From positions 1 through 44,750 of the forward strand of contig CALFSX010000079.1 of NCBI GenBank assembly GCA_937916515.1: a stretch of DNA of 44,750 bases. The letters run 5' to 3'. The notes beneath the pieces are model-generated. The model had not been told where the DNA came from, searched no databases, and was given only the letters and a program-made list of their open reading frames with translations. Position numbers and translations under genes: made by a program. This document shows positions 1 to 20,522 of the stretch, piece after piece. The stretch is from an uncultured Planctomycetaceae bacterium. GTDB lineage: Bacteria > Planctomycetota > Planctomycetia > Planctomycetales > Planctomycetaceae. The first letter of the stretch is position 1, and the number at the start of each line of letters is the position of its first letter.

Positions 1-600
1 CCATTTCATCAATGATATCCAGGGGGAAACGGGTATCCGGACACGCTGCTAGGAGTCGGACTGGGGCGATTGTCTTCAGCCGATCAGTCTTGCTTCCACC
101 GACAGGATGTAGGAGGAGAGTTAAACTTCTGCGGAATAGACCAGATTACAAAAAAAAAAGCGTAGCGGAGGTCGTCAAGAGTTTCGTCACTCTGAGTGCC
201 AATGGTGAAGCCGAAAGTCTTGAGAGTCTGTTGATTTAGTCGCGGAGCGACGACATCTGATAGCCTTGGGTTTCAACCCAAGGTTGACTGGTAGAATTGG
301 GGACAGCCGCGGAGTGGCGACATATGGCAATTTTACGCATGCCGTTGCTCCGCGACTTTACCCACGCGGTGTTGGACACCTCGGACTAAAGTCCGAGGCT
401 ATCGCATGTCGTCGCTCCGCGACTAAATCACCAAGCCCTTGACGACTTCCGCTACGAGCGGTCACAAGTTTTCGTAAATTGCTCTGGAATTTGCGCTAAC
501 CGGATTTCGCTGACTTGTGGCGGCGGATAACGTAAACCGGACTTCGTGGGCTGATGCCTACTAGCCAGAACCGTCCACAACAAAAGGTAAATTGCTGCCA
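1..600. other. Intergenic region with palindromic repeats, no convincing gene
   Basis: I see no gene here. The one open frame (12-239, +) is rich in Arg and Ser, has no recognisable domain, and its end runs into the inverted-repeat element described separately (161-456), so I treat it as chance. The end of an upstream gene may lie just outside the window. Positions 480-590 hold the presumed promoter and leader of the next gene; an AAAGGT at 583-588 could be its ribosome binding site. Confidence 0.5.
161..456. repeat. Nested palindromic repeat element (REP/BIME-like)
   Basis: The outer arms at 161-179 (CGTAGCGGAGGTCGTCAAG) and 438-456 are inverted copies with one mismatch. Inner arms at 235-265 and 397-427 (31 bp) are inverted copies with about two mismatches, built around GTCGCGGAGCGACGAC. 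At the inner ends lie two perfect 9-bp hairpins: 263-282 (CCTTGGGTT/AACCCAAGG) and 379-398 (CCTCGGACT/AGTCCGAGG), each with a 2-nt loop. A weaker inverted pair (GCCGCGGAG.. and ..CTCCGCGAC) sits between them. This looks like several palindromic repeats stacked symmetrically. No transposase is present. Confidence 0.8.
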
Positions 601-2334: not shown

Positions 2335-2416
2335 AACGCCGTGAAGGATTCTGAAAAGCAAAAACGCTGTTTAAATTCGAGAAGAGGCTGTCATGCAGAA
2401 TGCGTTTCAGTCACGA

Positions 2417-2596
2417 AGTGACGGTAGGTTGTAGCCACGGGCGGGAGCCCGTGGTTTGCAAAAAGTCAGACGGAAAGTCCCGAAGGGACGATAGGCGTAT
2501 CATTTCGCGTTGTTGCCTGTCGTCCTTTCAGGACTGAAAACGACGGTCGAATGCTGTTCCACGGGCTCGCGCCCGTGGCTATCATCTACCGTCACT
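2417..2596. repeat. Composite palindromic element with 38-bp terminal inverted repeats
   Basis: The left arm 2417-2454 (AGTGACGGTAGG..GCCACGGGCG..) and right arm 2559-2596 are inverted copies over 38 bp with a few mismatches. Each arm contains a hairpin of the CCACGGGC..GCCCGTGG type. Inside are two smaller palindromes, GTCCC-GAA-GGGAC near 2475 and GTCCT-TTC-AGGAC near 2522. The design matches the element at 161-456 on the other side of the propeller gene. There is no open frame inside, so it is a non-autonomous element or a cluster of REP-like units. The rest of the 2185-2663 gap holds repeat copy 1 and nothing else I can name. Confidence 0.8.
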
Positions 2597-7665: not shown

Positions 7666-9021
7666 TTGATGACGATTCATTCGGAATTTGCGGATGCCAC
7701 AGACGCCGGCAGTATTGCAGTTGCAGGGGACGATGATCCTCCAGGATCTGCTTCCGTGCTGTTGAAAGCACGAACAGCTTCCCGGCAGATACTGTCTGCT
7801 GGCGTTCTGGATTTAGTTCCCGCAAAACGCGTCACCCGCGCCGCTCGGCGGACGCTTTCTGGCAGCGAGCCGACCGATCAGTCAACCGCCTTTCGTCGTC
7901 GTTTCTTCCCAACTGCCAAACTGAGCGACTGGAATGACTGGCGATGGCAGTCTCGAAATCGCATTAAGACGTTGGCTCAGTTTGAGGACATGGTGACGCT
8001 GTCAGAAACTGAGCGGGAAGCTTTGCTGCAGGGCGGTACAATGCTGCCTGTTGGGATTACGCCGTACTATATGAGCCTGCTGGATCCGGTCAACGACCAG
8101 CAACCGCTGCGGAAAACCGTGATTCCCACAACCGCAGAATTCACTCGAACAGTGGGTGAATCCGACGATCCGCTGGGGGAAGACGGGCACAGTCCTGTTC
8201 CCGGACTGGTTCATCGCTATCCAGACCGCGTCTTGTTTCTGCCGCTGGACTTCTGTTCAACGTATTGCCGATATTGCACTCGATCGCGAGTCGTCGGGCA
8301 TGGCGAAATCCTTCCGAACGAATCTCGCCTGCAGGCGATGTACGAATACCTGGAAGGTGCCACACAGGTTCGCGACGTGCTGATTTCCGGCGGAGACCCG
8401 CTGGCTTTAAGCGACGATAAGCTGGATGGTATTTTGACGCGTTTGCGTTCCATTAAACACATCGAGTTCGTGCGTATTGGCACGAAAATGCCAGCCGTTC
8501 TGCCGCAACGCATCACTCCGCAGTTTGTGAAAATGTTGCGGAAACATCATCCATTATGGATGAGCGTGCATTTTCTGCATCCGGACGAATGCACGTCCGA
8601 ATCCAAACGAGCGTGTGAGCGATTGGTGGATGCCGGCATTCCTTTGGGTTCGCAAACGGTTTTGCTGAAGGGAGTGAACGACAGCGTTGATACGATGAAA
8701 CAGCTGGTTCACAAACTGCTGACGATGCGTGTTCGCCCGTACTATTTGTACCAGTGTGATCCAATCAGCGGCTCGGCTCATTTTCGAACACCGGTCGCCA
8801 AGGGGCTGGAAATTGTTCAGGGGCTGCGTGGACACACCACTGGTTATGCTGTGCCAACTTATGTAATTGATGCGCCAGGCGGTGGCGGGAAAATTCCGTT
8901 GCAGCCGGATTCTATTGTCGGCCGTGATGGTGACTGGATTCTGCTGAAGAATTTTGAGGGTAAGACGTTTCGATATCCGGACCCGGTTGAAACCGGCGTC
9001 GCAGCCACTGTCGCAACTTGA
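7666..9021 (+). CDS. kamA: Lysine 2,3-aminomutase (KamA-type radical SAM enzyme)
   Basis: A 451-residue radical-SAM, PLP-dependent aminomutase that interconverts L-lysine and L-beta-lysine. The radical-SAM cluster motif is C197-STY-C201-RY-C204. The PLP lysine is K409 in DAPGGGGK. Two aspartates that in the characterised lysine enzyme hold the substrate epsilon-amino group are both visible: the D of YQCDPISGSAHFRTPV and D402 of DAPGGGGK. That favours true lysine aminomutase over the EF-P enzyme EpmB. An N-terminal extension of about 60-80 residues, poorly conserved in appearance, precedes the core. The start at 7666 has AAGG about 10 nt upstream and a second ATG directly after it. No epmA neighbour is present. 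In methanogens and some bacteria beta-lysine is acetylated to an osmolyte; several GNAT domains lie downstream here, but a link is inference. Confidence 0.93.
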   Translation: MMTIHSEFADATDAGSIAVAGDDDPPGSASVLLKARTASRQILSAGVLDLVPAKRVTRAARRTLSGSEPTDQSTAFRRRFFPTAKLSDWNDWRWQSRNRIKTLAQFEDMVTLSETEREALLQGGTMLPVGITPYYMSLLDPVNDQQPLRKTVIPTTAEFTRTVGESDDPLGEDGHSPVPGLVHRYPDRVLFLPLDFCSTYCRYCTRSRVVGHGEILPNESRLQAMYEYLEGATQVRDVLISGGDPLALSDDKLDGILTRLRSIKHIEFVRIGTKMPAVLPQRITPQFVKMLRKHHPLWMSVHFLHPDECTSESKRACERLVDAGIPLGSQTVLLKGVNDSVDTMKQLVHKLLTMRVRPYYLYQCDPISGSAHFRTPVAKGLEIVQGLRGHTTGYAVPTYVIDAPGGGGKIPLQPDSIVGRDGDWILLKNFEGKTFRYPDPVETGVAATVAT

Positions 9022-9060
9022 TCTTGTGAGCCGTCAGTACCTGCCAACCTCGCTGCATCT

Positions 9061-9090
9061 GCCCGCTGGCATCGTTGATTTGCAGCGGGC
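9061..9090 (+). terminator. Hairpin downstream of kamA, no T tract
   Basis: GCCCGCTG at 9061-9068 pairs perfectly with CAGCGGGC at 9083-9090, 40 nt after the kamA stop codon. There is no run of T after it, so it could slow or protect transcript ends rather than terminate. Confidence 0.25.
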
Positions 9091-9109
9091 GCACCGCTGA
9101 GTCTTCGGG

Positions 9110-9163
9110 TAGTGGATCTTGTTAAAGATCCTGTGGCACGGGGATCTTTAACAAGATCCACTA
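9110..9163. repeat. Perfect 22-bp inverted repeat (REP-like)
   Basis: TAGTGGATCTTGTTAAAGATCC at 9110-9131 is followed after 10 nt by its exact reverse complement at 9142-9163. Each arm is itself a small hairpin (GGATCTT-GTTA-AAGATCC). This type of GGATCTTGTTAAAGATCC palindrome is, to my knowledge, widespread in planctomycete intergenic DNA. Lying between kamA and the next gene, it could also act as a transcript-end structure. Confidence 0.75.
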
Positions 9164-9232
9164 CTAAAAACCCAAGTTCCTTGCCGTTGCGCTGCATTAG
9201 CCATTAGCCTTTTTTGTTGAAGTAGATTCCAA

Positions 9233-9757
9233 ATGGATCAGGACGAATTTTTGTGTGCGCGTTGTGCTCGACACACAAAAACGTGTTGTCAGGGCACGGA
9301 AATCTACACAACATCCGGTGATGTCAAACGCATTGCCGAGCATGTTGGGACATCGGATTTTTATGAGTTTCGTTTGCCTGATGATCCAGTCTATGCAGAT
9401 CAGGATGACGACCCGCTTTGGAAGACCCGTGTTTTTCGAGCGGATGGCAGTCGTCGAGTGTTGAAACAGCAGGCGAATCGTGATTGCACGTTTCTTGGCA
9501 CTCAGGGGTGCAGTTTGCCGCTTGAAGTTCGTCCGTTGATTTGTCGCCTTTATCCTTTTGATTATACGGAAGCTGGCGTCTTTGATGACAAGCTTGCCAA
9601 AGGTTGTCCGGTAGAACTGCTTCGGCCCGGTCAGGATTTACTGACGACTCTTGACATGCACAAAGCCGATGCGGACCGCTGGCATAAGCAGTTGTATGAC
9701 GAACTGCGATGCGAGCCAACGAACGCACGTTACGCAGAACCAGTCGATCAACTTTAG
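9233..9757 (+). CDS. YkgJ-family cysteine cluster protein
   Basis: A 174-residue protein of the YkgJ (zinc- or iron-chelating) cysteine cluster family. The typical pattern is present: C8-x2-C11 and a CC pair at residues 18-19 near the N-terminus, then NRDCTFLGTQGCSLPLEVRPLICRLYPF split around the last Cys, and a final GCPVE. The family binds metal through these cysteines; its function is unknown. The product has no signal peptide and is probably cytoplasmic. It sits 66 nt upstream of the first ATP-grasp gene on the same strand, so it may belong to the same transcript, but nothing ties it to that chemistry. Confidence 0.8.
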   Translation: MDQDEFLCARCARHTKTCCQGTEIYTTSGDVKRIAEHVGTSDFYEFRLPDDPVYADQDDDPLWKTRVFRADGSRRVLKQQANRDCTFLGTQGCSLPLEVRPLICRLYPFDYTEAGVFDDKLAKGCPVELLRPGQDLLTTLDMHKADADRWHKQLYDELRCEPTNARYAEPVDQL

Positions 9758-9823
9758 TAATCGAGAGATTGCTGGACAGCGTTTTCAGCGACACCAGAAG
9801 TCACTCTGAAAGAATGAGTAGTT

Positions 9824-10873
9824 ATGTTAATTGGACTCACGTTTGATCTTCGCGAGGAATATCTGGCCGCCGGATATAGCGAACTGCAGACTGCAGAATT
9901 TGATCGCGCTGACACGATTGATTCCATTGAAGCGGCGTTGAAGGGGCTTGGGCATGAAGTTGACCGGGTCGGTCATGCCCGCAATCTGGTTTCGCGTTTG
10001 TCGGCGGGCGATCGCTGGGACCTTGTCTTTAATATCTGCGAAGGGCTTAGTGGAGTCGGGCGTGAAGCTCAGGTGCCCGCCATTCTTGACGTGTTCGACA
10101 TCCCTTACACGTTCGGTGATCCGTGCGTTATGTCCGTTTGTTTGCACAAAAGCATCACCAAGTCGGCGATTCGCGATGCTGGTCTGCAGACGCCTAAGTC
10201 TGTTTTGATCAGCCACATGCGGGATCTTGATGATGTGGCTCTGAAGTTTCCGTTGTTTGCAAAGCCGGTGGCTGAAGGAACCGGCAAGGGAATCACACCC
10301 GCGTCTCGCGTTTGCGATATCAGTCAACTGGTCGCCGAATGTGAACGCCAGTTGATCCAGTATCAGCAGCCAATTCTTGTGGAAGAATATCTGCCGGGCA
10401 GAGAATTCACCGTGGGGCTGCTGGGTACGGGGGCTCAGGCAGAAGTTCTGGGGACGCTGGAAATCGTGCTGCTTCCTGGAGCTGAAAGCGATTGCTATTC
10501 GTACGTTAATAAAGAACGCTGTGAGGAACTGGTCGAGTATCGATTGGTTACGCCTGACGATCCGGAAGTGTTTGAAGCCGAACGTATTGCTCTGGAAGCA
10601 TGGCGAGCACTGAATGGGCGCGATGCTGGTCGGATCGATCTTCGATCGGATGCGACTGGGACTCCTCAGTTTCTGGAAGCAAACCCATTAGCGGGGCTGC
10701 ACCCGCAGCATTCAGACCTGCCGATGCTGGCGACAGCTGTCGGCATGTCTTACGTTGAATTGATTCGCCGTATCGTCGATTCGGCGGCGATGCGAGTACG
10801 CAGTTCTGCTGATAGTGGCGATCACCAGCAATGCGGTCTTCAGGGTTGCGACACGAATGCCGCTGCAAATTGA
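9824..10873 (+). CDS. D-Ala-D-Ala-ligase-like ATP-grasp enzyme (first of a pair)
   Basis: A 349-residue ATP-grasp ligase related to D-alanine-D-alanine ligase. Visible are an N-terminal domain with DLVFNICEGLSGVGREAQVPAIL split by me after EGL, the Ddl-like ATP-binding lysine in FPLFAKPVAEGTGKGI, the hinge VEEYLPGREFTVGLLG, and the metal-binding end RIDLRSD..FLEANPLAGLHP. Ddl enzymes join two amino acids using ATP. The substrate here is unlikely to be fixed as D-Ala because a second paralogue follows at once and there are no peptidoglycan genes nearby. The stop codon TGA abuts the ATG of the next gene, so the two are co-translated. The last ~20 residues look unstructured. The start ATG at 9824 has GAATGAGTAG upstream and no strong Shine-Dalgarno. 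Confidence 0.85.
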   Translation: MLIGLTFDLREEYLAAGYSELQTAEFDRADTIDSIEAALKGLGHEVDRVGHARNLVSRLSAGDRWDLVFNICEGLSGVGREAQVPAILDVFDIPYTFGDPCVMSVCLHKSITKSAIRDAGLQTPKSVLISHMRDLDDVALKFPLFAKPVAEGTGKGITPASRVCDISQLVAECERQLIQYQQPILVEEYLPGREFTVGLLGTGAQAEVLGTLEIVLLPGAESDCYSYVNKERCEELVEYRLVTPDDPEVFEAERIALEAWRALNGRDAGRIDLRSDATGTPQFLEANPLAGLHPQHSDLPMLATAVGMSYVELIRRIVDSAAMRVRSSADSGDHQQCGLQGCDTNAAAN

Positions 10874-11887
10874 ATGGACGGCCTGATGTCATCACGAAAA
10901 GTTGTCATTCTGCACAATGAAGTCGATCAACACGCTTCGGTGGCTGATCAGGATGTCATTGTGCAGCGAGACGCCGTTCGGCAGGCGCTTTGTGAGCAGG
11001 GTTATCAGGTTGAGATTCTTGAATGTACTTTGAATATGCAGAATGCGGCTGATCATTTAAGGTCGCTGAATCCGGATGTTGTTTTTAATTTGGTGGAATC
11101 GTTGGGGGGCACAGATCGGCTGATGGCGGCTGCTACGCTGCTGCTGGAATCGATGAAGATTCCATTTACGGGGGCTTCGACCAATGCGATCCTGCAAACA
11201 TCAGACAAAGTGTCGGCGAAGCGGTTGATGACCGTTGCCGGTTTGCCAACAGCACGATGGTCAACGGGGGCAGATTTCAACAGCCATAATCACGGAGCGG
11301 TCAGCCGTGCGATCATTAAGCCTGTGTGGGAACACGCTTCATTTGGGATGGATGATGATTGCGTGGTAGACATCGCCGCGGTGCCTGATTGGAGAACACG
11401 TCTGAGGGATCGTTGCGTAAATTCAGGGTGCCTGCATTTTGCGGAAGAGTACATTGATGGGCGCGAGTTCAATCTTTCTGTGCTGGAAGGCGACGACGGA
11501 CGGCCTGTGGTGTTGCCGCCGGCGGAAATCGACTTTTCGGCCTATCCCACTGAAAAGCCTCGCATTGTTGGTCACAAAGCCAAGTGGTGCGAAGAGTCAT
11601 TCGAATATCAGCAGACTCCTCGCAGTTTTGAATTTGCCGGATCGGACAGCCCGTTACTGCAGCAGTTGACCGAGCTGGCGGCGACCTGTTGGCACACGTT
11701 TCAGCTAAGCGGGTATGCTCGAATTGACTTTCGAGTCGATCACGCAGGAACGCCCTGGATTCTGGAAAGCAACGTGAATCCGTGTCTGTCTCCGGACGCC
11801 GGGTTTGCTGCCGCCTTGGATCGAGCTTCAATCAGTTTTTCATCGGCAGTTGATCAAATTGTTCGCCGTGCTATGAGCCTTCCTTAG
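10874..11887 (+). CDS. D-Ala-D-Ala-ligase-like ATP-grasp enzyme (second of a pair)
   Basis: A 337-residue ATP-grasp ligase whose start ATG immediately follows the stop of its paralogue. A second in-frame ATG lies four codons in (MSSRKVVILHNE), which is the more conserved-looking beginning. Motifs are NPDVVFNLVESLGG (compare FNICEG in the first enzyme), FTGASTNAILQTSDKVSAKRL split after QTS, the ATP lysine in AIIKPVWEHASFGMD, EEYIDGREFNLSVLEG, and the metal-binding RIDFRVD..WILESNVNPCLSP. It differs enough from the first copy to act on another substrate. Together they could add two residues in sequence. Product and substrates are unknown. It is followed by a 147-nt gap holding repeat copy 2. 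Confidence 0.85.
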   Translation: MDGLMSSRKVVILHNEVDQHASVADQDVIVQRDAVRQALCEQGYQVEILECTLNMQNAADHLRSLNPDVVFNLVESLGGTDRLMAAATLLLESMKIPFTGASTNAILQTSDKVSAKRLMTVAGLPTARWSTGADFNSHNHGAVSRAIIKPVWEHASFGMDDDCVVDIAAVPDWRTRLRDRCVNSGCLHFAEEYIDGREFNLSVLEGDDGRPVVLPPAEIDFSAYPTEKPRIVGHKAKWCEESFEYQQTPRSFEFAGSDSPLLQQLTELAATCWHTFQLSGYARIDFRVDHAGTPWILESNVNPCLSPDAGFAAALDRASISFSSAVDQIVRRAMSLP

Positions 11888-11934
11888 GCTTTTTCTAATG
11901 CGGTGAGCCTGTTCACATTATGTCAAGTTGTCAT

Positions 11935-12018
11935 AGCGACAACGGAGCGGTTCGGCGGTTCGAACGTTCCACGTCGTTCCGCATTCCACGCCACCGGGTC
12001 AAGGGCGAAGCCCTTGTT
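11935..12018 (+). repeat. Dispersed intergenic repeat, copy 2
   Basis: This 84-bp copy aligns without gaps to 26901-26984, with about a dozen differences by eye. It ends AAGGGCGAAGCCCTTGTT, which includes an AAGGGC-GAA-GCCCTT hairpin. The repeat stops 16 nt before the GTG start of the next gene, so it forms that gene's 5' leader. Confidence 0.85.
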
Positions 12019-12034
12019 AGGAAATGGGTGTTAA

Positions 12035-13777
12035 GTGTTTCGTATCCGCAGAATTCACGACGATGTTGTTCCCGTCAATAAGACGGCCGTTCAGGAAGTG
12101 ATTCAGATTTTTAAGGATCAATTTCCTGATGCACCCGTCACGGATGTGACGGCTTTGGCCGAAAAGCTTCGCAATCCTTTCAAGCAGCGATTTCGCACCG
12201 TTCTGTACGTCGCCGAAAAACGGCCGGGGCAAGTCGAAGGCTTTGCGACCGTATTGCACGAACCCGTTTTGGGCTTCTGCTATCTGGACTATCTGGCGGC
12301 TGGCAGGAAGCTTACCGGGCGTGGCATTGGGGCTGCACTTTACGAACACATTCGCTCTGAGGCGTTAACTCTTGGGGCGAAAGGGGTGTTCTTTGAATGC
12401 CTTCCTGATGACGCTGACCGCTGTGCGGACGCCGAAATGCGCAAGTCCAATGCCGCGCGTCTCAGGTTTTACGAAACCTACGGCGCGGTGCCGATTATGG
12501 GCACTCAATACGAAATTCCCGTTCCGGGTGCCGAAAATGACAACCTTCCGCATCTGGTTTACGACGGACTTGGTCGAGACGAGCCGCTTTCTGCAAAGTT
12601 TACCAAAGACGTTGTGCGAGCAATTCTGGAACGCAAATACGGAGACCTTTGTCCGCCCGAATACGTGACTCAGGTTGTTGGTTCGTTTAAGCAGAATCCC
12701 GTGTCGCTGCGACCATTGCGGTACTTGAAAGCTGCATCGGATCGAATTGCTCCAACGGCCGGTTCTTACGAATTGATCGCGGTCGCGATTAACGACAAGC
12801 ACGATATTCATCATATTCGCGAACGTGGTTATGTGGAATCGCCCGTTCGGATTGGAGTCATTGAAAGCGAACTCAAAAAATCCGGATTGATTGAGTGCGT
12901 GCCGGTTAAGGAATTTCCGTTAAAGCACATTCTGGCAGTACACGACGACAACCTGGTAAATTACCTGAAGAAGGCGTGTGAGACAGTACCGGAAGGCAAA
13001 TCTGTTTATCCTTACGTGTTTCCTATTCGTAATGCGACACGCCCGCCGCGAGAGATGTCTGTTCTATCGGGCTATTACTGCATTGATACCTTTACGCCCA
13101 TTCACCGGAATGCTTTTCCGGCAGCTCGACGAGCCGTCGATTGTGCGATGACAGCGGCTGAATTGGTATTGAACGGGCGGCGGATTTCTTACGCTTTAAT
13201 CAGACCGCCCGGGCATCATGCAGAACGCAAATCGTTCGGAGGATTCTGTTACTTCAACAACGCGGCTGTTGCGGCAAACTATCTGAGTGCGTTTGGTAAG
13301 GTGGCCATTCTGGACATCGACTACCATCATGGGAATGGGCAGCAGGATATCTTCTACGAGCGCAGTGACGTACTGACGGTTTCAATCCATGGCGATCCCG
13401 ACTTTGCGTATCCCTACTTTACCGGGTTTTCGGATGAGACGGGCGCGGGCGAAGGTGAGGGTTTTAATCTGAATATCGCATTGCCGGAGGTTCTGGATGG
13501 GAAGCAGTATCACAAAGCTTTAACAACTGCGATAAAGGTTGTTCAGGACTTCAATCCTGAGTTTCTGGTGATTGCGTTGGGGCTGGATCCAGCCAAGGGG
13601 GACCCAACCGGCACATGGTCTTTGGGGCCAGCCGATTTTGAAAAGAACGGCGAACTGGTCGGGGCGATGAGGCTGCCGACAGTTGTCATTCAGGAAGGCG
13701 GGTATCGTACTCGCACACTTGGAATCAACGCGAGACGCTTTTTTGAAGGGCTAGTTCGGACCAGCCATGCGACTTGA
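12035..13777 (+). CDS. GNAT acetyltransferase fused to histone-deacetylase-like amidohydrolase
   Basis: A 580-residue two-domain protein. Residues ~1-150 are a GNAT N-acetyltransferase domain with the acetyl-CoA loop LTGRGIGAALYEH. Residues ~270-575 form a zinc amidohydrolase of the histone deacetylase/acetylpolyamine amidohydrolase/AcuC family: RPPGHHAERKSFGGFCYFNN split after ERK carries the His pair; zinc ligands are visible in ILDIDYHHGNGQQD (D-x-H) and the D of GLDPAKGDP; GGYRTRTLG lies near the end. Such enzymes remove acetyl groups from polyamines or lysine side chains. Having an acetylating and a deacetylating domain in one chain suggests a protection/deprotection step, or that one domain recognises the other's product; this is inference. 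The start is GTG at 12035 with AGGAAATGGG about 6 nt upstream; the 84-bp repeat ends 16 nt before it. The end overlaps the next gene by 11 nt. Confidence 0.9.
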   Translation: MFRIRRIHDDVVPVNKTAVQEVIQIFKDQFPDAPVTDVTALAEKLRNPFKQRFRTVLYVAEKRPGQVEGFATVLHEPVLGFCYLDYLAAGRKLTGRGIGAALYEHIRSEALTLGAKGVFFECLPDDADRCADAEMRKSNAARLRFYETYGAVPIMGTQYEIPVPGAENDNLPHLVYDGLGRDEPLSAKFTKDVVRAILERKYGDLCPPEYVTQVVGSFKQNPVSLRPLRYLKAASDRIAPTAGSYELIAVAINDKHDIHHIRERGYVESPVRIGVIESELKKSGLIECVPVKEFPLKHILAVHDDNLVNYLKKACETVPEGKSVYPYVFPIRNATRPPREMSVLSGYYCIDTFTPIHRNAFPAARRAVDCAMTAAELVLNGRRISYALIRPPGHHAERKSFGGFCYFNNAAVAANYLSAFGKVAILDIDYHHGNGQQDIFYERSDVLTVSIHGDPDFAYPYFTGFSDETGAGEGEGFNLNIALPEVLDGKQYHKALTTAIKVVQDFNPEFLVIALGLDPAKGDPTGTWSLGPADFEKNGELVGAMRLPTVVIQEGGYRTRTLGINARRFFEGLVRTSHAT

Positions 13778-14285
13778 TTTAATGATTCGCGCCGAAGTTC
13801 GCCGAGAAGACCGCGATGCTGTAAGGCGTCTGGCGGAATCGACGAAGTTTTTTCGTCCGGATGAAGTTGATGTTGCCGTTGAGCTGGTTGATGCTTTTCT
13901 GGCCACTGGCGAAGCATCGGGGTATGAGTTTTTGTTTGCTGAGCAGAATGGTCACGTTGTTGGGTATATCTGTTATGGGCTGATTGGCTGCACGTTGGGC
14001 AGCTATGATGTTTACTGGATTGTGGTTGATCAGCAGTCGCAGGGGGCAGGCATCGGACGCCGATTGTTGCAGCAGGCAGAACAGGATCTGGCGTCTCGCA
14101 ATGCTCGGTTGGTTTATATTGAAACGTCAAACAAGCCCCAGTACGCACCGACCCGCCAATTCTACCTGCGGTGCGGATATCAGATTGCTGCAGTGATGGC
14201 GGATTTCTACGACGACGGCGACGACAAGGTTGTACTTGTTCGAGACCTGCGTAATTCCAATACTTCTTCAGTGAGTGCCATATGA
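13767..14285 (+). CDS. GNAT family N-acetyltransferase
   Basis: A 172-residue single-domain GNAT enzyme. The acetyl-CoA binding loop is QGAGIGRRLLQQAEQDL, preceded by the strand YDVYWIVVD and followed by YIETSNKPQYAPTRQFYLRCGY, split by me at APT, a typical GNAT C-terminal half. It most likely transfers an acetyl or other acyl group to an amine. The ATG at 13767 overlaps the upstream stop codon by 11 nt, so translation is probably coupled; an ATG at 13782 (MIRAEVRR) is an alternative that avoids most of the overlap. The substrate is unknown; the position after the HDAC-like fusion suggests a shared small-molecule amine. Confidence 0.87.
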   Translation: MRLDLMIRAEVRREDRDAVRRLAESTKFFRPDEVDVAVELVDAFLATGEASGYEFLFAEQNGHVVGYICYGLIGCTLGSYDVYWIVVDQQSQGAGIGRRLLQQAEQDLASRNARLVYIETSNKPQYAPTRQFYLRCGYQIAAVMADFYDDGDDKVVLVRDLRNSNTSSVSAI

Positions 14286-14383
14286 AGGTGACAGCTTTTT
14301 ATGGCGCACAACGTTGGGCAGGATTTTAGCTGTTTTGTGGCCGGGCACCAGTTGCTGGCTTAGTGGGTATTGGTGAGGTTTGG

Positions 14384-14507
14384 TATTGAGATGATTGATC
14401 GTGATTGACAGACTACCGCGCATTGCGTCTACGAGACATTCTCCGGTGCCGTTTCAAGCGGACTAACGAGGCGACGACAGAACAAGTGAGCCATCGACTT
14501 CAATTTG
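14384..14507 (+). repeat. Leader-like repeat, copy B (pairs with 7021-7140)
   Basis: This is the second copy of the element at 7021. The matching 5' part is 14384-14434 and the matching 3' part is about 14477-14507, which includes the likely GTG start (14486) of the next gene. A TTGACA occurs at 14405-14410, as it does at the same offset in copy A (7042-7047), but no good -10 box follows in either copy. The 14286-14383 stretch before it shows nothing recognisable. Confidence 0.5.
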
Positions 14508-15214
14508 CAATTGCGAACCAGCCCGACGACGTGACCTGTGGGCCTACCTGCCTGCAAGCGGTTTACGAGTACTTTGGTGATGACGTTCCGTTGGAAGAAA
14601 TCATTCGTGACGTCACGACGTTTGACGAGGGCGGTACTCTGGCCGTGATGTTGGGGTGTCACGCTCTGCGTCGCGGCTACAACGCGGTCATTTACACATT
14701 CAACCTGCAGGTGTTCGATCCCACCTGGTTCCACGACAGTGAATCTCGAGTTGATCTTAGTGAACGCATCGCCGCTCAGATGGCGGTGAAAGATGATCCA
14801 AAGTTAAGGACGGCATCTGCTCACTATCTGGAATACCTGTCCCTGGGGGGCATTATCCGCATGGAAGACCTCACAACGGGGCTGATTCGTAAATACCTGA
14901 AACGTGACATTCCTGTGTTGGCGGGTTTGAGTTCAACCTATCTATATCAGGAATCGCGCGAGACGGCTGCCGATGGGAAGTCGGATGATTTGCGAGGCGA
15001 GCCGGCTGGGCATTTTGTGGTGATGTGCGGCTATGATCAGGTGGAACGCAATGTTCTGATCGCGGATCCTTACCTGGCAAATCCCATTTCAGGCACCAGC
15101 CATTATTCGGTGGACCTTGATCGAGCCATGTGTTCGATACTTCTGGGGATTGTGACTTACGACGCAAATCTGCTAATCATACGTCCTGGTGATCGATTTA
15201 AGGCAACCCAATAG
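14486..15214 (+). CDS. C39-type cysteine peptidase-like protein
   Basis: A 242-residue protein with the layout of bacteriocin-processing C39/papain-like peptidases. A Gln and Cys lie six apart (Q12 and C18 in NQPDDVTCGPTCLQ), followed by helical YEYFGDDVPLEEI. Further on come the catalytic His in AGHFVVMCGYD and the Asp in VLIADPY, so the triad appears intact. There is no signal peptide or ABC-transporter part, so it probably acts in the cytoplasm, on a peptide or amide made by neighbouring ligases or as an acyl/peptidyl transferase. The frame is open back to a TTG at 14405; I chose GTG 14486 because homology-like sequence begins there, because an AACGAGGCG lies upstream, and because the preceding part is the repeat element. 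Confidence 0.75.
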   Translation: MSHRLQFAIANQPDDVTCGPTCLQAVYEYFGDDVPLEEIIRDVTTFDEGGTLAVMLGCHALRRGYNAVIYTFNLQVFDPTWFHDSESRVDLSERIAAQMAVKDDPKLRTASAHYLEYLSLGGIIRMEDLTTGLIRKYLKRDIPVLAGLSSTYLYQESRETAADGKSDDLRGEPAGHFVVMCGYDQVERNVLIADPYLANPISGTSHYSVDLDRAMCSILLGIVTYDANLLIIRPGDRFKATQ

Positions 15215-15279
15215 CTGGTGACGGAATTGATCTGTCGGCTTTGACTGAGTTCGCAGATTGTTAAAAGGTGATGGGACGG

Positions 15280-15326
15280 GGCCTGGTGTTGGTAGACGTT
15301 ATTCATCTCGATTGCCGGACCAGGCC
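15280..15326. repeat. Inverted repeat ahead of the RimK-like gene
   Basis: GGCCTGGT at 15280-15287 and ACCAGGCC at 15319-15326 are exact inverted 8-mers 31 nt apart, in the 281-nt gap upstream of the RimK-like gene. It could be a leader structure or a protein-binding site. The rest of the gap shows nothing I recognise. Confidence 0.3.
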
Positions 15327-15495
15327 TTTGGTGAACGTTTTGTTTATTGCCTCGCCCCACATGCACGGGCCAGCAATCGTAAAGTTCTGAAAAGCACATT
15401 GTGGGTTGTCGAATTATTTTGTTGACTGCTGGTGGCTGCGATGAAACGACAGTTCGCTGTCCGTTGCTACTTTGCTATGAAGGCGCTTTTACTTA

Positions 15496-16971
15496 ATGAC
15501 CGCACTTATTGTCACGTCTGACCCCAAGGATTGGCCCTTTGAAATTCCTGACGTACAGGTATTGGACGCTAAGTCGTATCTGACCTGTCCCGAATACGCA
15601 TCGGCCGCGCGTTCAACTCGTGTTTTCAACCTGTGCCGCAGTTATCGTTATCAAAGCATGGGTTATTATGTGTCCTTGCTGGCAGAAGCTCGCGGGCACA
15701 AGCCAATGCCAGGCGTGACGACTTTGCAGGATCTGAAGACTCGATCGCTGGTTCGCTCAGTGACTGCGGAACTGGAGGAGCTGATTCAAAAATGCCTTGC
15801 TCCCCTGCAGTCCGAAGAATTTACGCTTAGCATTTACTTCGGTCGCAACATGGCTCAACGCTATGAGCGACTTTCGTTGCAGTTGTTTAACCTGTTTCCA
15901 GTGCCTTTGCTGCGAGTCGATTTTTATCGCCGCGATGATGCGTGGATCGTTCGGCGAATTCGAGCGATCCCGGGAGCGGACGTTCCGGAAAGTCATCGCC
16001 CGTTTGTCGCCGAAGCGGCTGCTCGATACTTCAGCGGGCGAAGTACGTCACTTAAGTCTCGCAAAAGAACTCGGTTCGACCTTGCCATTCTTCATAACCC
16101 GGAAGAAAAAGAGAACGCTCCTTCTGACGAAGCGGCTTTGAAGAAATTTCTGAAGGCGGCGGAGAAGCAGGATATTAACGCTGAATTAATTACCAAAGAC
16201 GATTCCGGGCGTCTGCTGGAATTTGACGCGTTGTTTATTCGCGAAACAACCAGTGTTGACCATCACACCTATCGATTTGCTCGTCGAGCGGCCAGTGAAG
16301 GCATGGTGGTGATTGATGACCCGATTTCGATTTTAAGGTGTACCAATAAGGTCTATCTTGCCGAACTGTTGACGCGCCACAAAGTCCCGACACCGCGAAC
16401 GATCGTGCTGCATCGCGACAACGTAGATCGCATTGCTTCAGAACTTGGGTTCCCCTGTGTCCTGAAGAAGCCAGATAGCTCGTTTTCTCAGGGAGTCGTC
16501 AAAGTCAAAGACGCTGTCGAATTATCAACTCACCTGGACGAGTTTTTGGGTGAGTCAGATCTACTGGTCGCTCAGGAGTTTCTGCCCACAACGTTCGATT
16601 GGCGCATCGGCGTGCTGGACGGCAAGGCTCTGTTTGCCTGTCGCTACTTTATGGCCAAAGGACACTGGCAGATCATTCGTCAGGAAAACCACGGATCAGG
16701 TCGCTACGGCAAAACGGAAGCTGTGCCGGTTGAGCTTGCTCCTAGAAAAGCGGTTGACGTTGCCGTGAAGGCGGCCAATCTGATTGGCAACGGTTTTTAC
16801 GGAGTCGACGTGAAGGAATCGGACGGTCGATTCACCGTCATTGAAGTCAACGATAATCCGAATGTCGATGTCGGTGTCGAAGATGCCTTGCTGAAGGACG
16901 AATTGTACCGTCGCATTATGGAAACGTTTGTCCGTCGTATTGAAGCGGCAAAGGCTCGTCATCATGTCTGA
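15496..16971 (+). CDS. RimK-like ATP-grasp ligase with N-terminal RimK-associated domain
   Basis: A 491-residue ligase. The first ~190 residues match the domain often found ahead of RimK-like ATP-grasp modules (VFNLCRSYRYQSMGYYVSLLA split at SMG, then ARGHKPMPG). The C-terminal half is an ATP-grasp domain: FPCVLKKPDSSFSQGVVKV with the ATP-binding lysine, the hinge VAQEFLPTTFDWRIGVLDG, and the metal-binding TVIEVNDNPNVDVGVED. RimK enzymes add glutamate or similar residues to a carboxyl end. The start ATG is preceded by GAAGGCG about 10 nt away. Its stop codon overlaps the next ATG by 8 nt (ATGTCTGA), so it is translationally coupled to the GCS2 gene. RimK-like plus GCS2 pairs have been noted in comparative genomics as likely peptide or amide synthesis modules; the product is unknown. 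Confidence 0.9.
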   Translation: MTALIVTSDPKDWPFEIPDVQVLDAKSYLTCPEYASAARSTRVFNLCRSYRYQSMGYYVSLLAEARGHKPMPGVTTLQDLKTRSLVRSVTAELEELIQKCLAPLQSEEFTLSIYFGRNMAQRYERLSLQLFNLFPVPLLRVDFYRRDDAWIVRRIRAIPGADVPESHRPFVAEAAARYFSGRSTSLKSRKRTRFDLAILHNPEEKENAPSDEAALKKFLKAAEKQDINAELITKDDSGRLLEFDALFIRETTSVDHHTYRFARRAASEGMVVIDDPISILRCTNKVYLAELLTRHKVPTPRTIVLHRDNVDRIASELGFPCVLKKPDSSFSQGVVKVKDAVELSTHLDEFLGESDLLVAQEFLPTTFDWRIGVLDGKALFACRYFMAKGHWQIIRQENHGSGRYGKTEAVPVELAPRKAVDVAVKAANLIGNGFYGVDVKESDGRFTVIEVNDNPNVDVGVEDALLKDELYRRIMETFVRRIEAAKARHHV

Positions 16972-18217
16972 AACATTGCACCTGTTTGATGCGTTTGGTG
17001 TTGAACTGGAATACATGATCGTCGATCAGGATTCGCTGAATGTGAATCCAATCGCCGATCGACTGATTCAGGCCGATTGCGGGCACGTCGAATCCGAAAT
17101 TGAACGCGGCGAAATCTCGTGGTCGAACGAGCTTGCTCTGCATGTGATCGAATTCAAGACCGCTGGTCCGGCAAGTCAGCTTGACGGACTGTCGGCACTG
17201 TTTCAGCAGAACGTGACAGACGCAAATCAGCATCTGGCCGCTTTGGGGGGACGCCTGCTGCCGTCGGCCATGCATCCATGGATGGACCCGTTCAAAGAAA
17301 TGAAGCTGTGGCCTCATGAATACAACGAAGTGTATGAAGCCTTTGATCGCATTTTTGACTGTCGAGGACATGGCTGGGCCAACCTGCAAAGTGTGCATCT
17401 GAACCTTCCGTTTTGCGGTGACGAAGAGTTCGGACGTCTGCATGCCGCAATTCGTTTGTTGCTGCCGTTGTTTCCGGGGTTGGCCGCTTCATCGCCAGCG
17501 ATGGATGGTCGATTGTCGGGATTGCTGGACAATCGGCTGGAAGTTTATCGCACGAATTCTCGCCGCGTTCCACTTGTGGCTGGGTTGGTCATTCCGGAAC
17601 CTGCCTTCACCAAAGAAGACTACGATCGATTGATTTTTCAGCCGTTGTACAAGGCGATTGCTCCACTTGATCCAGACGGCGTTTTGCAGGAAGAGTTTCT
17701 GAATGCCAGAGGAGCGATCGCTCGATTTGACCGTGGCGCGATAGAAATTCGTGTGATCGATATTCAGGAATGTCCGGCTGCCGATCTGGCCATTCTGCAG
17801 GCGTCCGTGGCTGTGTTAAAAGAACTGGTTGCCGAGAAATGGAGCGACACGGTTTCTCAACGAGACGTTAGCGTGGAGCGGTTGCATAATATATTGCTGG
17901 CCGTCATTCGCGACGGCGAACGGGCCGTGATTACGGATGCGGGCTATTTGCGACTGTTGGGAATTCAGTCCGGCACTTGTACGGTTGCGGAAGTCTGGCA
18001 GCAACTGGCGGCTGCCGTTTCACTGAATCTGGATGTTGCCACAGGGCGAGCATTGGACGTGATTTTAGGGCAGGGCCCACTGTCTCGCAGAATTATCAAT
18101 CGCCTTAAAGGTGTTGACGAATCTTCTTTTCGGCAGTCCTGCAAAACAGTCTATTCGGAACTGGCTGATTGCCTGGCCAACGGTGTCAGTTTTGAGGGTT
18201 CGACGACGACAAAATGA
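16964..18217 (+). CDS. GCS2-family glutamate-amine/cysteine ligase-like enzyme
   Basis: A 417-residue enzyme of the glutamate-cysteine ligase family 2 (glutamine-synthetase-like fold). Visible family features are the N-terminal FGVELEYMIVD with its metal-binding glutamates, SNELALHVIEFKT, the MHPWMDP block, HGWANLQSVHLNLPF near residue 150, and IEIRVIDIQECP in the C-terminal half. GCS2 enzymes activate a glutamate gamma-carboxyl with ATP and join it to an amine. The ATG at 16964 lies inside the end of the RimK-like gene; the frame is open a little further upstream (TTG 16928) but that would only lengthen the overlap. The stop overlaps the next start as ATGA. Cysteine need not be the partner: no glutathione synthetase is nearby, and here the context favours another amine. 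Confidence 0.88.
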   Translation: MSETLHLFDAFGVELEYMIVDQDSLNVNPIADRLIQADCGHVESEIERGEISWSNELALHVIEFKTAGPASQLDGLSALFQQNVTDANQHLAALGGRLLPSAMHPWMDPFKEMKLWPHEYNEVYEAFDRIFDCRGHGWANLQSVHLNLPFCGDEEFGRLHAAIRLLLPLFPGLAASSPAMDGRLSGLLDNRLEVYRTNSRRVPLVAGLVIPEPAFTKEDYDRLIFQPLYKAIAPLDPDGVLQEEFLNARGAIARFDRGAIEIRVIDIQECPAADLAILQASVAVLKELVAEKWSDTVSQRDVSVERLHNILLAVIRDGERAVITDAGYLRLLGIQSGTCTVAEVWQQLAAAVSLNLDVATGRALDVILGQGPLSRRIINRLKGVDESSFRQSCKTVYSELADCLANGVSFEGSTTTK

Positions 18218-18963
18218 CGAAACGTGTGAAGGCTGAAATCGGCAGCGTTCCGGCTGTCGTCATCACCTGCGAACATGGTGGAAATCGTGTTCCCGCAAAG
18301 TACCGCAATTGCTTTGTCGAGGCTAACGATGCGTTGGAAAGTCATCGCGGCTGGGATCCGGGCGCGTTGAAGCTGGCTCGTGGGTTTTCGGCGGCACTGA
18401 AAGTTCCGTTGTATTCGTCCAGTGTGACTCGACTTTTGGTGGAACTGAATCGGTCGCGGCATCATCCCCGCTTGTTTTCGGAATTCACAGCCGAGCTTTC
18501 AGCAGACCAGAAGCAGTGTCTTCTTGATGAACACTGGTCTCCGTACCGGAGTCAGGTTGAACGGGCGATAGCGACTGCGATTGAAACCAGCGGTCACGTC
18601 GTCCATCTTTCGGTACACAGTTTTACTCCTGTTTGGGACGGAGAAACTCGCCGAACCGATGTGGGGCTGTTGTACGATCCGCAGCGCAACTGTGAAAAGG
18701 AGTTCTGTCAGCGGTGGGGCAGGGCACTGTCGCAAAGTCTTTCAGAGCTCTGCATTCACCGGAATTCGCCCTATCGCGGAACATCAGACGGTTTCGTGAC
18801 ACATTTGCGCCGACAATTTTCTGAAAACACCTACACTGGTATCGAGCTGGAAGTGAATCAGAAATTCTTCCTGCCAGCCCAGACAACGGCAGAGGCATTG
18901 GCGGGGCGAACTTCAGTTTACTCAGCGATTATTACAAGCTTTCAACAGACGTTAACAGGATAG
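18214..18963 (+). CDS. N-formylglutamate amidohydrolase-like protein
   Basis: A 249-residue zinc hydrolase of the N-formylglutamate amidohydrolase (FGase) family. Diagnostic are ITCEHGGNRVP near residue 20, SHRGWDPGAL, VELNRSRHHPRLFSE, LSVHSFTPVWDGETRRTDVG split at TRR, LLYDP, and a late TGIELEVNQKF. The classical enzyme releases formate from N-formylglutamate in histidine breakdown, but there are no hut genes here. In clusters with ATP-grasp and GCS2 ligases such proteins are thought to remove an acyl group or cleave an amide from the product. It overlaps the GCS2 stop by 4 nt (ATGA) and is followed 7 nt later by the acetyltransferase-nitrilase gene, so all four genes are one tightly coupled operon. 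Confidence 0.88.
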   Translation: MTKRVKAEIGSVPAVVITCEHGGNRVPAKYRNCFVEANDALESHRGWDPGALKLARGFSAALKVPLYSSSVTRLLVELNRSRHHPRLFSEFTAELSADQKQCLLDEHWSPYRSQVERAIATAIETSGHVVHLSVHSFTPVWDGETRRTDVGLLYDPQRNCEKEFCQRWGRALSQSLSELCIHRNSPYRGTSDGFVTHLRRQFSENTYTGIELEVNQKFFLPAQTTAEALAGRTSVYSAIITSFQQTLTG

Positions 18964-18970
18964 ATGAATA

Positions 18971-19147
18971 ATGTCCGGGCTCGACCTGAAGGAATTCGAA
19001 TGGAAGACAACACTGCGTCGATTGACAGTCGAGGACTATGATGAGCTGATTGCGATGCAGAAGTTGTGCTTTCCAGGAATGCAGCCCTGGGGCCGTGACC
19101 AGATTGAAAGTCAGATTCAGCATTTTCCAGCTGGCGATCGAAATTGA
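18971..19147 (+). CDS. 5' fragment of frameshifted GNAT-nitrilase gene
   Basis: This frame begins with the proper start of the gene: ATG 18971 with AGGA 10 nt upstream and 7 nt after the preceding stop. It reads [11 protein letters not shown], then [20 protein letters not shown], a normal GNAT beginning. It ends after 58 codons (..[10 protein letters not shown]-stop) where the protein should continue into the second frame (..[12 protein letters not shown], in the next entry). The switch point is at about 19128-19136. A one-base insertion or a loss of 2, 5 or 8 bases would explain it; the 8-base case fits the local sequence well (see findings). The domain starts here but cannot be completed in this frame. 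Confidence 0.65.
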
Positions 19148-20522
19148 CGGACGCATCGCTGCCTCGTCGTCCAGCTTGATTTTGTCGTTCGATTCCGGCA
19201 TGGAATGGCACGACTGGACCAAAGTGGCTGACAACGGTTACATCCGCAATCATGTTCCCAAAGGAGACGTGCTTTACGGCATCGAAATGATGGTTCACCC
19301 GGATTTTCGTGGCATGAAACTGTCACGCCGTTTATATGCAGCGAGAAAAGAGCTGTGTCGAGAAATGAATCTTTCTCGAATCATTATCGGCGGACGAATT
19401 CCTGGCTACTCCAAACACAAGGATGAAATGAATGCCAGTGAATATGTTGAACAGGTGATTGGTCGAACTCACTATGACAGTGTCTTGACTGCTCAACTGG
19501 CCAACGGGTTTGCTTTACAGGGGCTGATCCCCAATTATTTTCCCAGCGATACGGCCAGTTGCGGGTACGCCACTTTTCTGCAATGGCTGAACCTGGACTA
19601 CGTTAAAGGCGCTAAGCGCCAGTTTAGTACGGTCACTGAATTGGTGCGGATTGCCGCCGTTCAATACCAGATGCGGACCATCAAAGGCTTCGACGAGTTT
19701 GCTCAGCAATGCGAATTCTTTATCGATACCGCCAGCGAATACAAAAGCGACTTTGTGCTGTTTCCCGAACTGCACACCACGCAGTTGCTGTCGTGTATTC
19801 CAGGTTTGCGACCTGGTGAAGCGGCTCGCCGGTTGGCGGAGTTCACTCCACAGTATCTGGACTTCTATACGGAGATGGCCGTTAAGTATGACGTGAACAT
19901 TATTGGCGGTTCGCAATTTGTGCTGGAGGGTGATGCGTTATTCAATATCGCGTATCTGTTCCGTCGAGATGGGACGCTTGAGAAGCAGGAAAAGATTCAT
20001 ATTACTCCCAGCGAACGCAAGTGGTGGGGCGTGAGTCCTGGTCGAAAAGTTAACGTGTTTGAAACGGACTGCGGCCCAATTGGAATTCTGATTTGTTACG
20101 ACATTGAGTTCCCCGAACTTGTACGCATCAGTGCTGCTAAGGGGGCTCAGATTATTTTCGTGCCGTTCAATACAGACACACGTCACGGTTACCTGCGAGT
20201 TCGCAATTGCGCGATGGCTCGCTGCGTGGAAAACCATGTGTACGTCGCTGTCGCGGGCTGTACGGGCAATCTGCCGTTTGTTGAGAACAGTGATATCCAC
20301 TATGCTCAATCAGCGATCTTCACGCCTGCGGATGCTGAGTTCGCTCGCGATGCCATTGCCGCCGAATGCAACGCCAACATCGAAACGATGGTCATTCACG
20401 ACGTCGATGTCGAACAGTTACGTCGCCATAAACAAGCTGGCAGCGTACAAAACTGGAAAGACCGTCGCACAGATTTGTATCGAGTCGTCTATATGGAAGA
20501 CGGAGAAGAGCACAGCGTTTGA
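19050..20522 (+). CDS. GNAT/carbon-nitrogen hydrolase (nitrilase-superfamily) fusion, frameshifted at 5' end
   Basis: The downstream frame encodes most of a bifunctional protein. From about 19130 it carries the remaining GNAT part ([16 protein letters not shown], then [19 protein letters not shown]), and from about 19640 a complete nitrilase-superfamily amidase. The catalytic triad is intact: Glu in LFPELHTTQ, Lys in [13 protein letters not shown], Cys in [13 protein letters not shown]. Related enzymes cleave omega-amides or carbamoyl-amines. The formal start at 19050 is a TTG inside the other frame and its first ~26 residues are out-of-frame nonsense; the first in-frame ATG is 19200. The real gene most likely starts at 18971. 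The amidase could still be made by a restart, but the acetyltransferase is probably broken in this sequence. It is the last gene of the ligase operon and a terminator follows. Confidence 0.85.

Follow-up and report, generated by a model that had tools for sequence, protein, structure and literature searches.

Two tandem amidoligase gene sets in an uncultured planctomycete, one a candidate operon for an N-acetylated beta-lysine peptide

Introduction

Among the described systems closest to the locus reported here is the AblA/AblB pathway for N-epsilon-acetyl-beta-lysine, and osmolyte synthesis by a lysine aminomutase together with an acetyltransferase is already known, as outlined in PMC9337991 and PMC3543383. 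The locus lies in a stretch of 44,750 nucleotides from an uncultured Planctomycetaceae bacterium (contig CALFSX010000079.1, positions 1 to 44,750, of assembly GCA_937916515.1; hereafter the window), whose genome comprises 8.3 Mb in 343 contigs. Eleven genes follow one another in close series on its plus strand between positions 7666 and 20522 (Table 1). They probably represent two tandem pathways, the first of which, Module A (7666 to 14285), would be a biosynthetic operon for a small N-acetylated peptide that contains beta-lysine, followed by a second amidoligase gene set, Module B (14405 to 20522).

Like the AblA/AblB pathway, Module A holds a lysine 2,3-aminomutase (KamA) and an acetyltransferase in one locus; it differs in possessing two ligases related to D-alanine-D-alanine ligase (Ddl), an HDAC-type deacetylase, GNAT-type acetyltransferases without a match to AblB, and a KamA that scores below the AblA cut-off. 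In the synthesis of N-acetylglutaminylglutamine amide, a GNAT-ATP-grasp fusion makes an acetylated dipeptide solute. Module A shares the fusion of acetyltransferase and ATP-grasp domains, but its ligases are of the Ddl type and it also has KamA. Module B resembles a kind of cluster that has already been predicted: the amidoligase survey of Iyer et al. of 2009 reportedly proposed RLAN/RimK-GCS2 clusters with a peptidase and an amidohydrolase, and no feature distinguishing Module B from these was found. We know of no characterised product for either module. No description of either was found in searches of the open-licence PubMed Central literature; Module A may be mentioned elsewhere, including in the 2009 survey. 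By family models, the genes of Module A would be named D-alanine ligases and deacetylases.

Catalytic features of the Module A enzymes

The most informative gene of the locus is that for KamA, which names beta-lysine as the likely building block. It was missed by the initial annotation, which let the cluster begin at position 9824; this boundary was wrong, as both KamA and the YkgJ-like gene next to it go with the Ddl pair. In comparison with the solved lysine 2,3-aminomutase 2a5h, KamA reached 466 bits, and the equivalents of the CxxxCxxC motif and of residues R134, D293, D330, and K337, placed by alignment to 2a5h, were kept in all 93 KamA sequences that aligned over more than 300 residues. 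CxxxCxxC is the radical S-adenosylmethionine (SAM) motif, K337 the lysine of pyridoxal phosphate (PLP), R134 the residue for the carboxylate, and D293 and D330 those holding the epsilon-amino group. Against the EpmB model, KamA scored 229 bits, below the cut-off of 369. A second KamA paralogue in the genome (contig C32) is an EpmB with 405 bits; because it is this paralogue that passes the cut-off, EF-P does not account for the KamA of the window, and an assignment of the latter as an EF-P modification enzyme was rejected.

Ddl1 and Ddl2 share with Ddl the fold and the residues for ATP and Mg. Specifically, the AlphaFold2 models of Ddl1 and Ddl2 (predicted local distance difference test [pLDDT], 90.5 and 92.2) both had Ddl structures as their best Foldseek matches, and the equivalents of K215, R255, D257, E270, and N272 were present in 119 of 119 Ddl1 sequences and in 95 to 104 of the 104 Ddl2 sequences. 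They differ from Ddl in profile scores and in two further positions. With 144.8 and 100.5 bits, respectively, they contrast with a cut-off of 243 for the best Ddl model among the matches listed, and both remained below the cut-offs of all Ddl models among these matches (for Ddl1, 25 of 37 listed); two better Ddl matches are located elsewhere in the host genome. The equivalent of Tyr216 is glutamate in 86 of 119 Ddl1 sequences and tryptophan in all 104 Ddl2 sequences, and that of L282 is aspartate in 118/119 Ddl1 and glycine in 101/104 Ddl2 sequences, the rest being gaps. The S150 equivalent in Ddl1 is threonine or serine according to the alignment. Residue numbers follow the Ddl numbering, anchored on the Ddl1 and Ddl2 alignments. 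Judged by these differences, Ddl1 and Ddl2 would be ligases for amino acids other than D-alanine, and, as only a suggestion, a substrate carrying a second amino group would be a good fit for the acidic residues D8, E25, D27, and D298, which are invariant in Ddl1. Protein tagging, in which the ligases would transfer beta-lysine or acetyl-peptides onto proteins, is very improbable: RimK-type ligases such as that of Module B can modify proteins, and EF-P receives beta-lysine from other enzymes, but the Module A ligases are by fold of the Ddl type, which acts on free amino acids, and EF-P is already served by EpmB in this genome.

GNATm most closely matched PDB entry 2r7h from Desulfovibrio alaskensis G20, deposited as "putative D-alanine N-acetyltransferase," with 140 bits. 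For the HDAC domain of the GNAT-HDAC fusion, the best PDB match was 6phr, an acetylpolyamine amidohydrolase with which it has the HDAC fold in common, and the catalytic motifs were seen in the alignment. The protein differs from this amidohydrolase in its fusion to one or two GNAT domains and in its tie to a beta-lysine operon.

From these assignments, a pathway can be proposed in which KamA would convert L-lysine to beta-lysine, Ddl1 and Ddl2 would couple beta-lysine with one or two further amino acids at the expense of ATP, and GNATm would acetylate an amino group of the peptide product. GNAT-HDAC, where present, would add or remove acetyl groups, and the cap would thus be reversible for recycling. 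Beta-lysine as the ligase substrate, the order of the steps, and the identity and role of the product are what we infer here, alongside the observed gene content, conservation, fusions, and catalytic residues.

Coupling of the Module A genes

In a sample of 294 genomes from the phylum of the window, KamA (E ≤ 1e-100) and Ddl1 strongly co-occurred: both were present in 50 genomes and neither in 230, with six genomes containing only KamA and eight only Ddl1 (P = 5e-41, Fisher test). Ddl1 was thereby detected in 58 genomes; the set comprised 57 in the comparison with RLAN described below. In 12 Ddl1 genomes, the stretch retrieved around Ddl1 lacked KamA; 11 of them carry a KamA elsewhere that is 50 to 76% identical, and in G240 this copy adjoins a second Ddl1-like gene. 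The genomes with KamA without a Ddl1 ortholog are G126, G127, G241, G243, G287, and G028. The closest ties within Module A are fused open reading frames (ORFs), with Ddl2 and GNATm joined in 12 cases, GNATh, HDAC, and GNATm in nine, and Ddl1 and Ddl2 in one. A GNAT-HDAC ortholog was assigned to nine genomes, eight of which also hold Ddl1; these nine were selected by score from 98 genomes listed, the remainder of which match mostly the HDAC part alone. Furthermore, the identity of KamA between pairs of loci is correlated with that of the ligases across 82 loci (r = 0.68 to 0.75; KamA-Ddl1, r = 0.75). In the single-contig genome G105 of the window's family (loci L094 and L129), KamA, the Ddl pair, and GNAT-HDAC reside at three distant places, the set thus being retained without linkage.

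When the Ddl1 alignment was used to scan named genomes, at least 545 relatives were obtained, the best 80 of which were kept. With contig-cut loci counted in, KamA was found in 73, Ddl2 in 70, GNATm in 51, HDAC in 23, and YkgJ in 12 of these 80 loci, which span Planctomycetes, Desulfobacterales and relatives, Gammaproteobacteria, Bacteroidetes, Aminicenantes, Spirochaetales, WOR-3, and others; the taxon labels of single loci may err, since nearly all are metagenome-assembled genomes (MAGs). Within the window's phylum, 38 Ddl1 neighbourhoods picked by descending score (G192 skipped, G119 the last) contained KamA in 26, Ddl2 in 30, GNATm in 21, HDAC in three, and YkgJ in five cases. In a sample of the phylum centred on L139, a Desulfobacterales MAG, 35 of 148 genomes possessed Ddl1 at E ≤ 1e-60. 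The Module A set, an operon of four to six genes, is common to very different bacteria.

Any gene family flanking Module A was encountered in at most 6 of 113 loci, and the same holds for transporter, exporter, immunity, and regulator families, as judged by eye from representatives. These data bear on the idea that the acetylated peptide of Module A is an antibiotic, a signal, or a wall component rather than a solute. Beta-lysine is indeed a constituent of peptide antibiotics, and enzymes of the Ddl type function in wall synthesis; with exporter, immunity, and regulator genes so rare next to Module A, and with Ddl1 in such portions of two phyla (35/148 and 58/294 genomes), unlike a sporadic antibiotic cluster, such a function appears improbable. 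Downstream of Module A, genes named by eye as PhoU-like and phosphate-transporter-like were seen in six loci each (L171, L188, and relatives), seemingly a lineage-local arrangement.

Relation of Modules A and B

The initial annotation had treated the genes from position 9824 onward as a single cluster. Profiling of neighbourhoods in the window's phylum did reveal conserved cores, but there are two of them, and none spans both modules. RLAN, the marker of Module B, occurred in 75 of the 294 genomes. Neighbourhoods were evaluated for 60 of the 74 RLAN genomes other than the window's, leaving out 11 with weak or partial hits and three stronger ones (G149, G118, and G234); KamA, Ddl1, Ddl2, or HDAC was found in none of these 60 RLAN loci, and, reciprocally, C39, RLAN, or GCS2 in none of the 38 Ddl1 loci. 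RLAN and Ddl1 were present together in six of 294 genomes, i.e., fewer than the approximately 14.5 expected by our own arithmetic (two-sided P = 0.004). With this frequency and with no mixed loci, the eleven-gene cluster was rejected as a general unit. Thus, the co-occurrence anticipated in related genomes is strong within each half and fails between the halves, and a peptide-like metabolite as the product of an amidoligase cluster fits either half, whereas one joint pathway is unsupported.

Of the 80 named genomes with Module A, 50 were searched for RLAN, and nine were positive. Only in L176 is it seen close to Module A; in L210, a complete genome, about 290 kb separate the two, and in the remaining seven the contig with RLAN differs in length from that with Module A. 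In L176 (1569 to 12425; a Phycisphaerae MAG, same contig as L214), the gene order is reversed relative to the window, C39-RLAN-GCS2 being followed by KamA-Ddl1-Ddl2-GNAT-HDAC-GNATm, and the first group ends about 1.3 kb upstream of KamA. For two linked cases, the window and L176, a simple estimate gives P of about 0.002, and for L176 alone about 1 in 20; as the window is the discovery case, this linkage is only a hint. The adjacency of the two modules is not general.

An alternative reading is a single pathway of all eleven genes with one product, e.g., a beta-lysyl-glutamyl peptide that C39 and FGase would trim. The serial proximity of the genes on the same strand argues for it, as does the presence of both modules close together, in another order, on the unrelated contig L176. 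The co-occurrence of RLAN and Ddl1 below expectation argues against it, and so does the finding that of the nine RLAN-positive genomes only L176 has it nearby, although draft genomes can hide linkage. Taken together, a single pathway is quite unlikely.

Product of Module A and points against the proposal

For the proposed acetylated beta-lysine peptide, a role as a compatible solute or nitrogen reserve would be the most likely one, based on the analogy with N-epsilon-acetyl-beta-lysine (PMC9337991 and PMC3543383). More tentatively, Module A may be a cross-phylum pathway in anaerobes and planctomycetes that leads to a previously undescribed class of small metabolites, in which an N-acetylated beta-lysyl di- or tripeptide would be made by two dedicated Ddl-like ligases, provided with a reversible cap by GNAT and HDAC, and used as a solute or reserve. 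If the beta-lysine peptide is real, beta-lysine would have another route in addition to those leading to the osmolyte and to EF-P, many "Ddl" annotations would have to be corrected, and sulfate reducers and syntrophs would offer a target for metabolomics.

Several observations weigh against a peptide product of this kind or its role as a solute. The best NCBIfam model for KamA is AblA (TIGR03820), with 481 bits and a cut-off of 525. Six KamA-only and eight Ddl1-only genomes exist among the 294, and in G051, a genome 84% complete, Ddl1 is present and no lysine-type KamA was found. Among 72 uncut loci, an adjacent KamA is missing in 12 and an adjacent GNATm in 18. Moreover, related genomes entered the Fisher tests and the identity correlation as if they were independent, and the score cut-offs for Ddl1 and GNAT-HDAC were chosen after the hits were seen. 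Of the 80 named loci, 26 were screened for riboswitches, and no Na+ or lysine riboswitch was detected in them; those seen were one for thiamine pyrophosphate (TPP) and two for cobalamin (L141 and L175), located on the opposite strand or several kilobases upstream of KamA. Given the lack of such a riboswitch and of a recurrent transporter in the loci inspected, nothing directly indicates a solute. Finally, the amino acids coupled by the ligases could both be ordinary ones, with beta-lysine being acetylated alone.

A related alternative sees in Module A an elaborated N-epsilon-acetyl-beta-lysine osmolyte route, with KamA and a GNAT forming the osmolyte and the Ddl-like pair making something else. 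It could build on AblA as the top-scoring model of KamA, on the GNAT commonly found near KamA, and on the precedent of a lysine aminomutase acting with an acetyltransferase, as covered in PMC9337991 and PMC3543383. In contrast, no AblB model was among the NCBIfam matches of GNATm or GNAT-HDAC, the two ligases are almost as conserved as KamA, and the GNATm-Ddl2 fusions physically connect the acetyltransferase to a ligase; this alternative is therefore unlikely, and the N-acetylated beta-lysine peptide is preferred.

Composition of Module B

In Module B, the RLAN and RimK-like ATP-grasp protein adjoins GCS2, the arrangement by which RLAN-RimK/GCS2 amidoligase clusters are recognised. Among the 60 RLAN loci, C39, RLAN, and GCS2 were found together in 45, and in 32 FGase was present in addition; counted singly, C39 occurred in 47, GCS2 in 48, and FGase in 33. 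The GNAT-nitrilase fusion was surveyed in 288 genomes of the phylum, the other searches covering 294. Of its 47 carriers, 35 possess RLAN somewhere in the genome (P = 1.5e-14), but the gene lies within the RLAN locus in only three of 60 cases; with Ddl1 no association was observed in these 288 genomes. As far as the protein families tell, Module B would be a system of its own for the formation and trimming of amide bonds, probably those of glutamate-type substrates.

Gene layout of the window

The Pfam and NCBIfam matches bore out the calls made initially, i.e., two Ddl-like ATP-grasps, RLAN-RimK, GCS2, GNATs, and HDAC-like, C39-like, and FGase proteins encoded on one strand. For the GNAT-nitrilase fusion, only the GNAT part was confirmed, nitrilase-type matches staying below the NCBIfam cut-offs. 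The start/stop overlaps noted earlier are real as well: Ddl1 and Ddl2 abut, GNAT-HDAC and GNATm overlap by 11 bases, and RLAN/GCS2 and GCS2/FGase also overlap.

Table 1. Genes of Modules A and B in the window. Identities are from Pfam and NCBIfam profile matches; the GNAT part of GNAT-nitrilase is from a PF00583 search of its own genome.
Gene product	Position	Strand	Module	Profile matches and remarks
KamA	7666-9021	+	A	PF12544 + PF04055; lysine 2,3-aminomutase type radical-SAM/PLP enzyme
YkgJ-like CxxCxxCC protein	9233-9757	+	A, optional	PF03692 8e-6
Ddl1, Ddl-like ATP-grasp ligase	9824-10873	+	A	PF07478 1e-23
Ddl2, second Ddl-like ATP-grasp ligase	10874-11887	+	A	PF07478 5e-12
GNAT-HDAC fusion, acetylpolyamine-amidohydrolase-like	12035-13777	+	A, optional	PF00850 3e-74, PF00583
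GNATm, N-acetyltransferase	13767-14285	+	A	PF13508/PF00583
C39-like papain-fold peptidase (C39_2)	14405-15214	+	B	PF13529 3e-11
RLAN + RimK-like ATP-grasp ligase	15496-16971	+	B	PF14401 2e-49, PF08443
GCS2 carboxylate-amine ligase	16928-18217	+	B	PF04107 6e-26
FGase, N-formylglutamate-amidohydrolase-like hydrolase	18214-18963	+	B	PF05013 2e-25
GNAT-nitrilase fusion	19050-20522	+	B, loosely linked	NF040852 + TIGR03381 below cut-off; GNAT by PF00583

Some of the start codons call for comment. KamA is listed with a TTG start, and its real start probably lies further in. GCS2 is likewise listed with TTG, and an in-frame ATG at position 16964 also overlaps the RLAN stop. The TTG start listed for GNAT-nitrilase is probably too early, because most alignments with its homologues begin only near residue 22. 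FGase matched no NCBIfam family. A scan for promoters and terminators returned 7 and 16 sites, respectively, numbers not above those in shuffled sequences, so the operon boundary cannot be set from them. Outside the eleven genes, the Acido-Lenti-1 RNA motif (RF01687) was found above the gathering score at three places in the window, positions 238 to 283 (minus strand), 379 to 424 (plus strand), and 2409 to 2454 (minus strand), two of which are about 100 bases apart on opposite strands.

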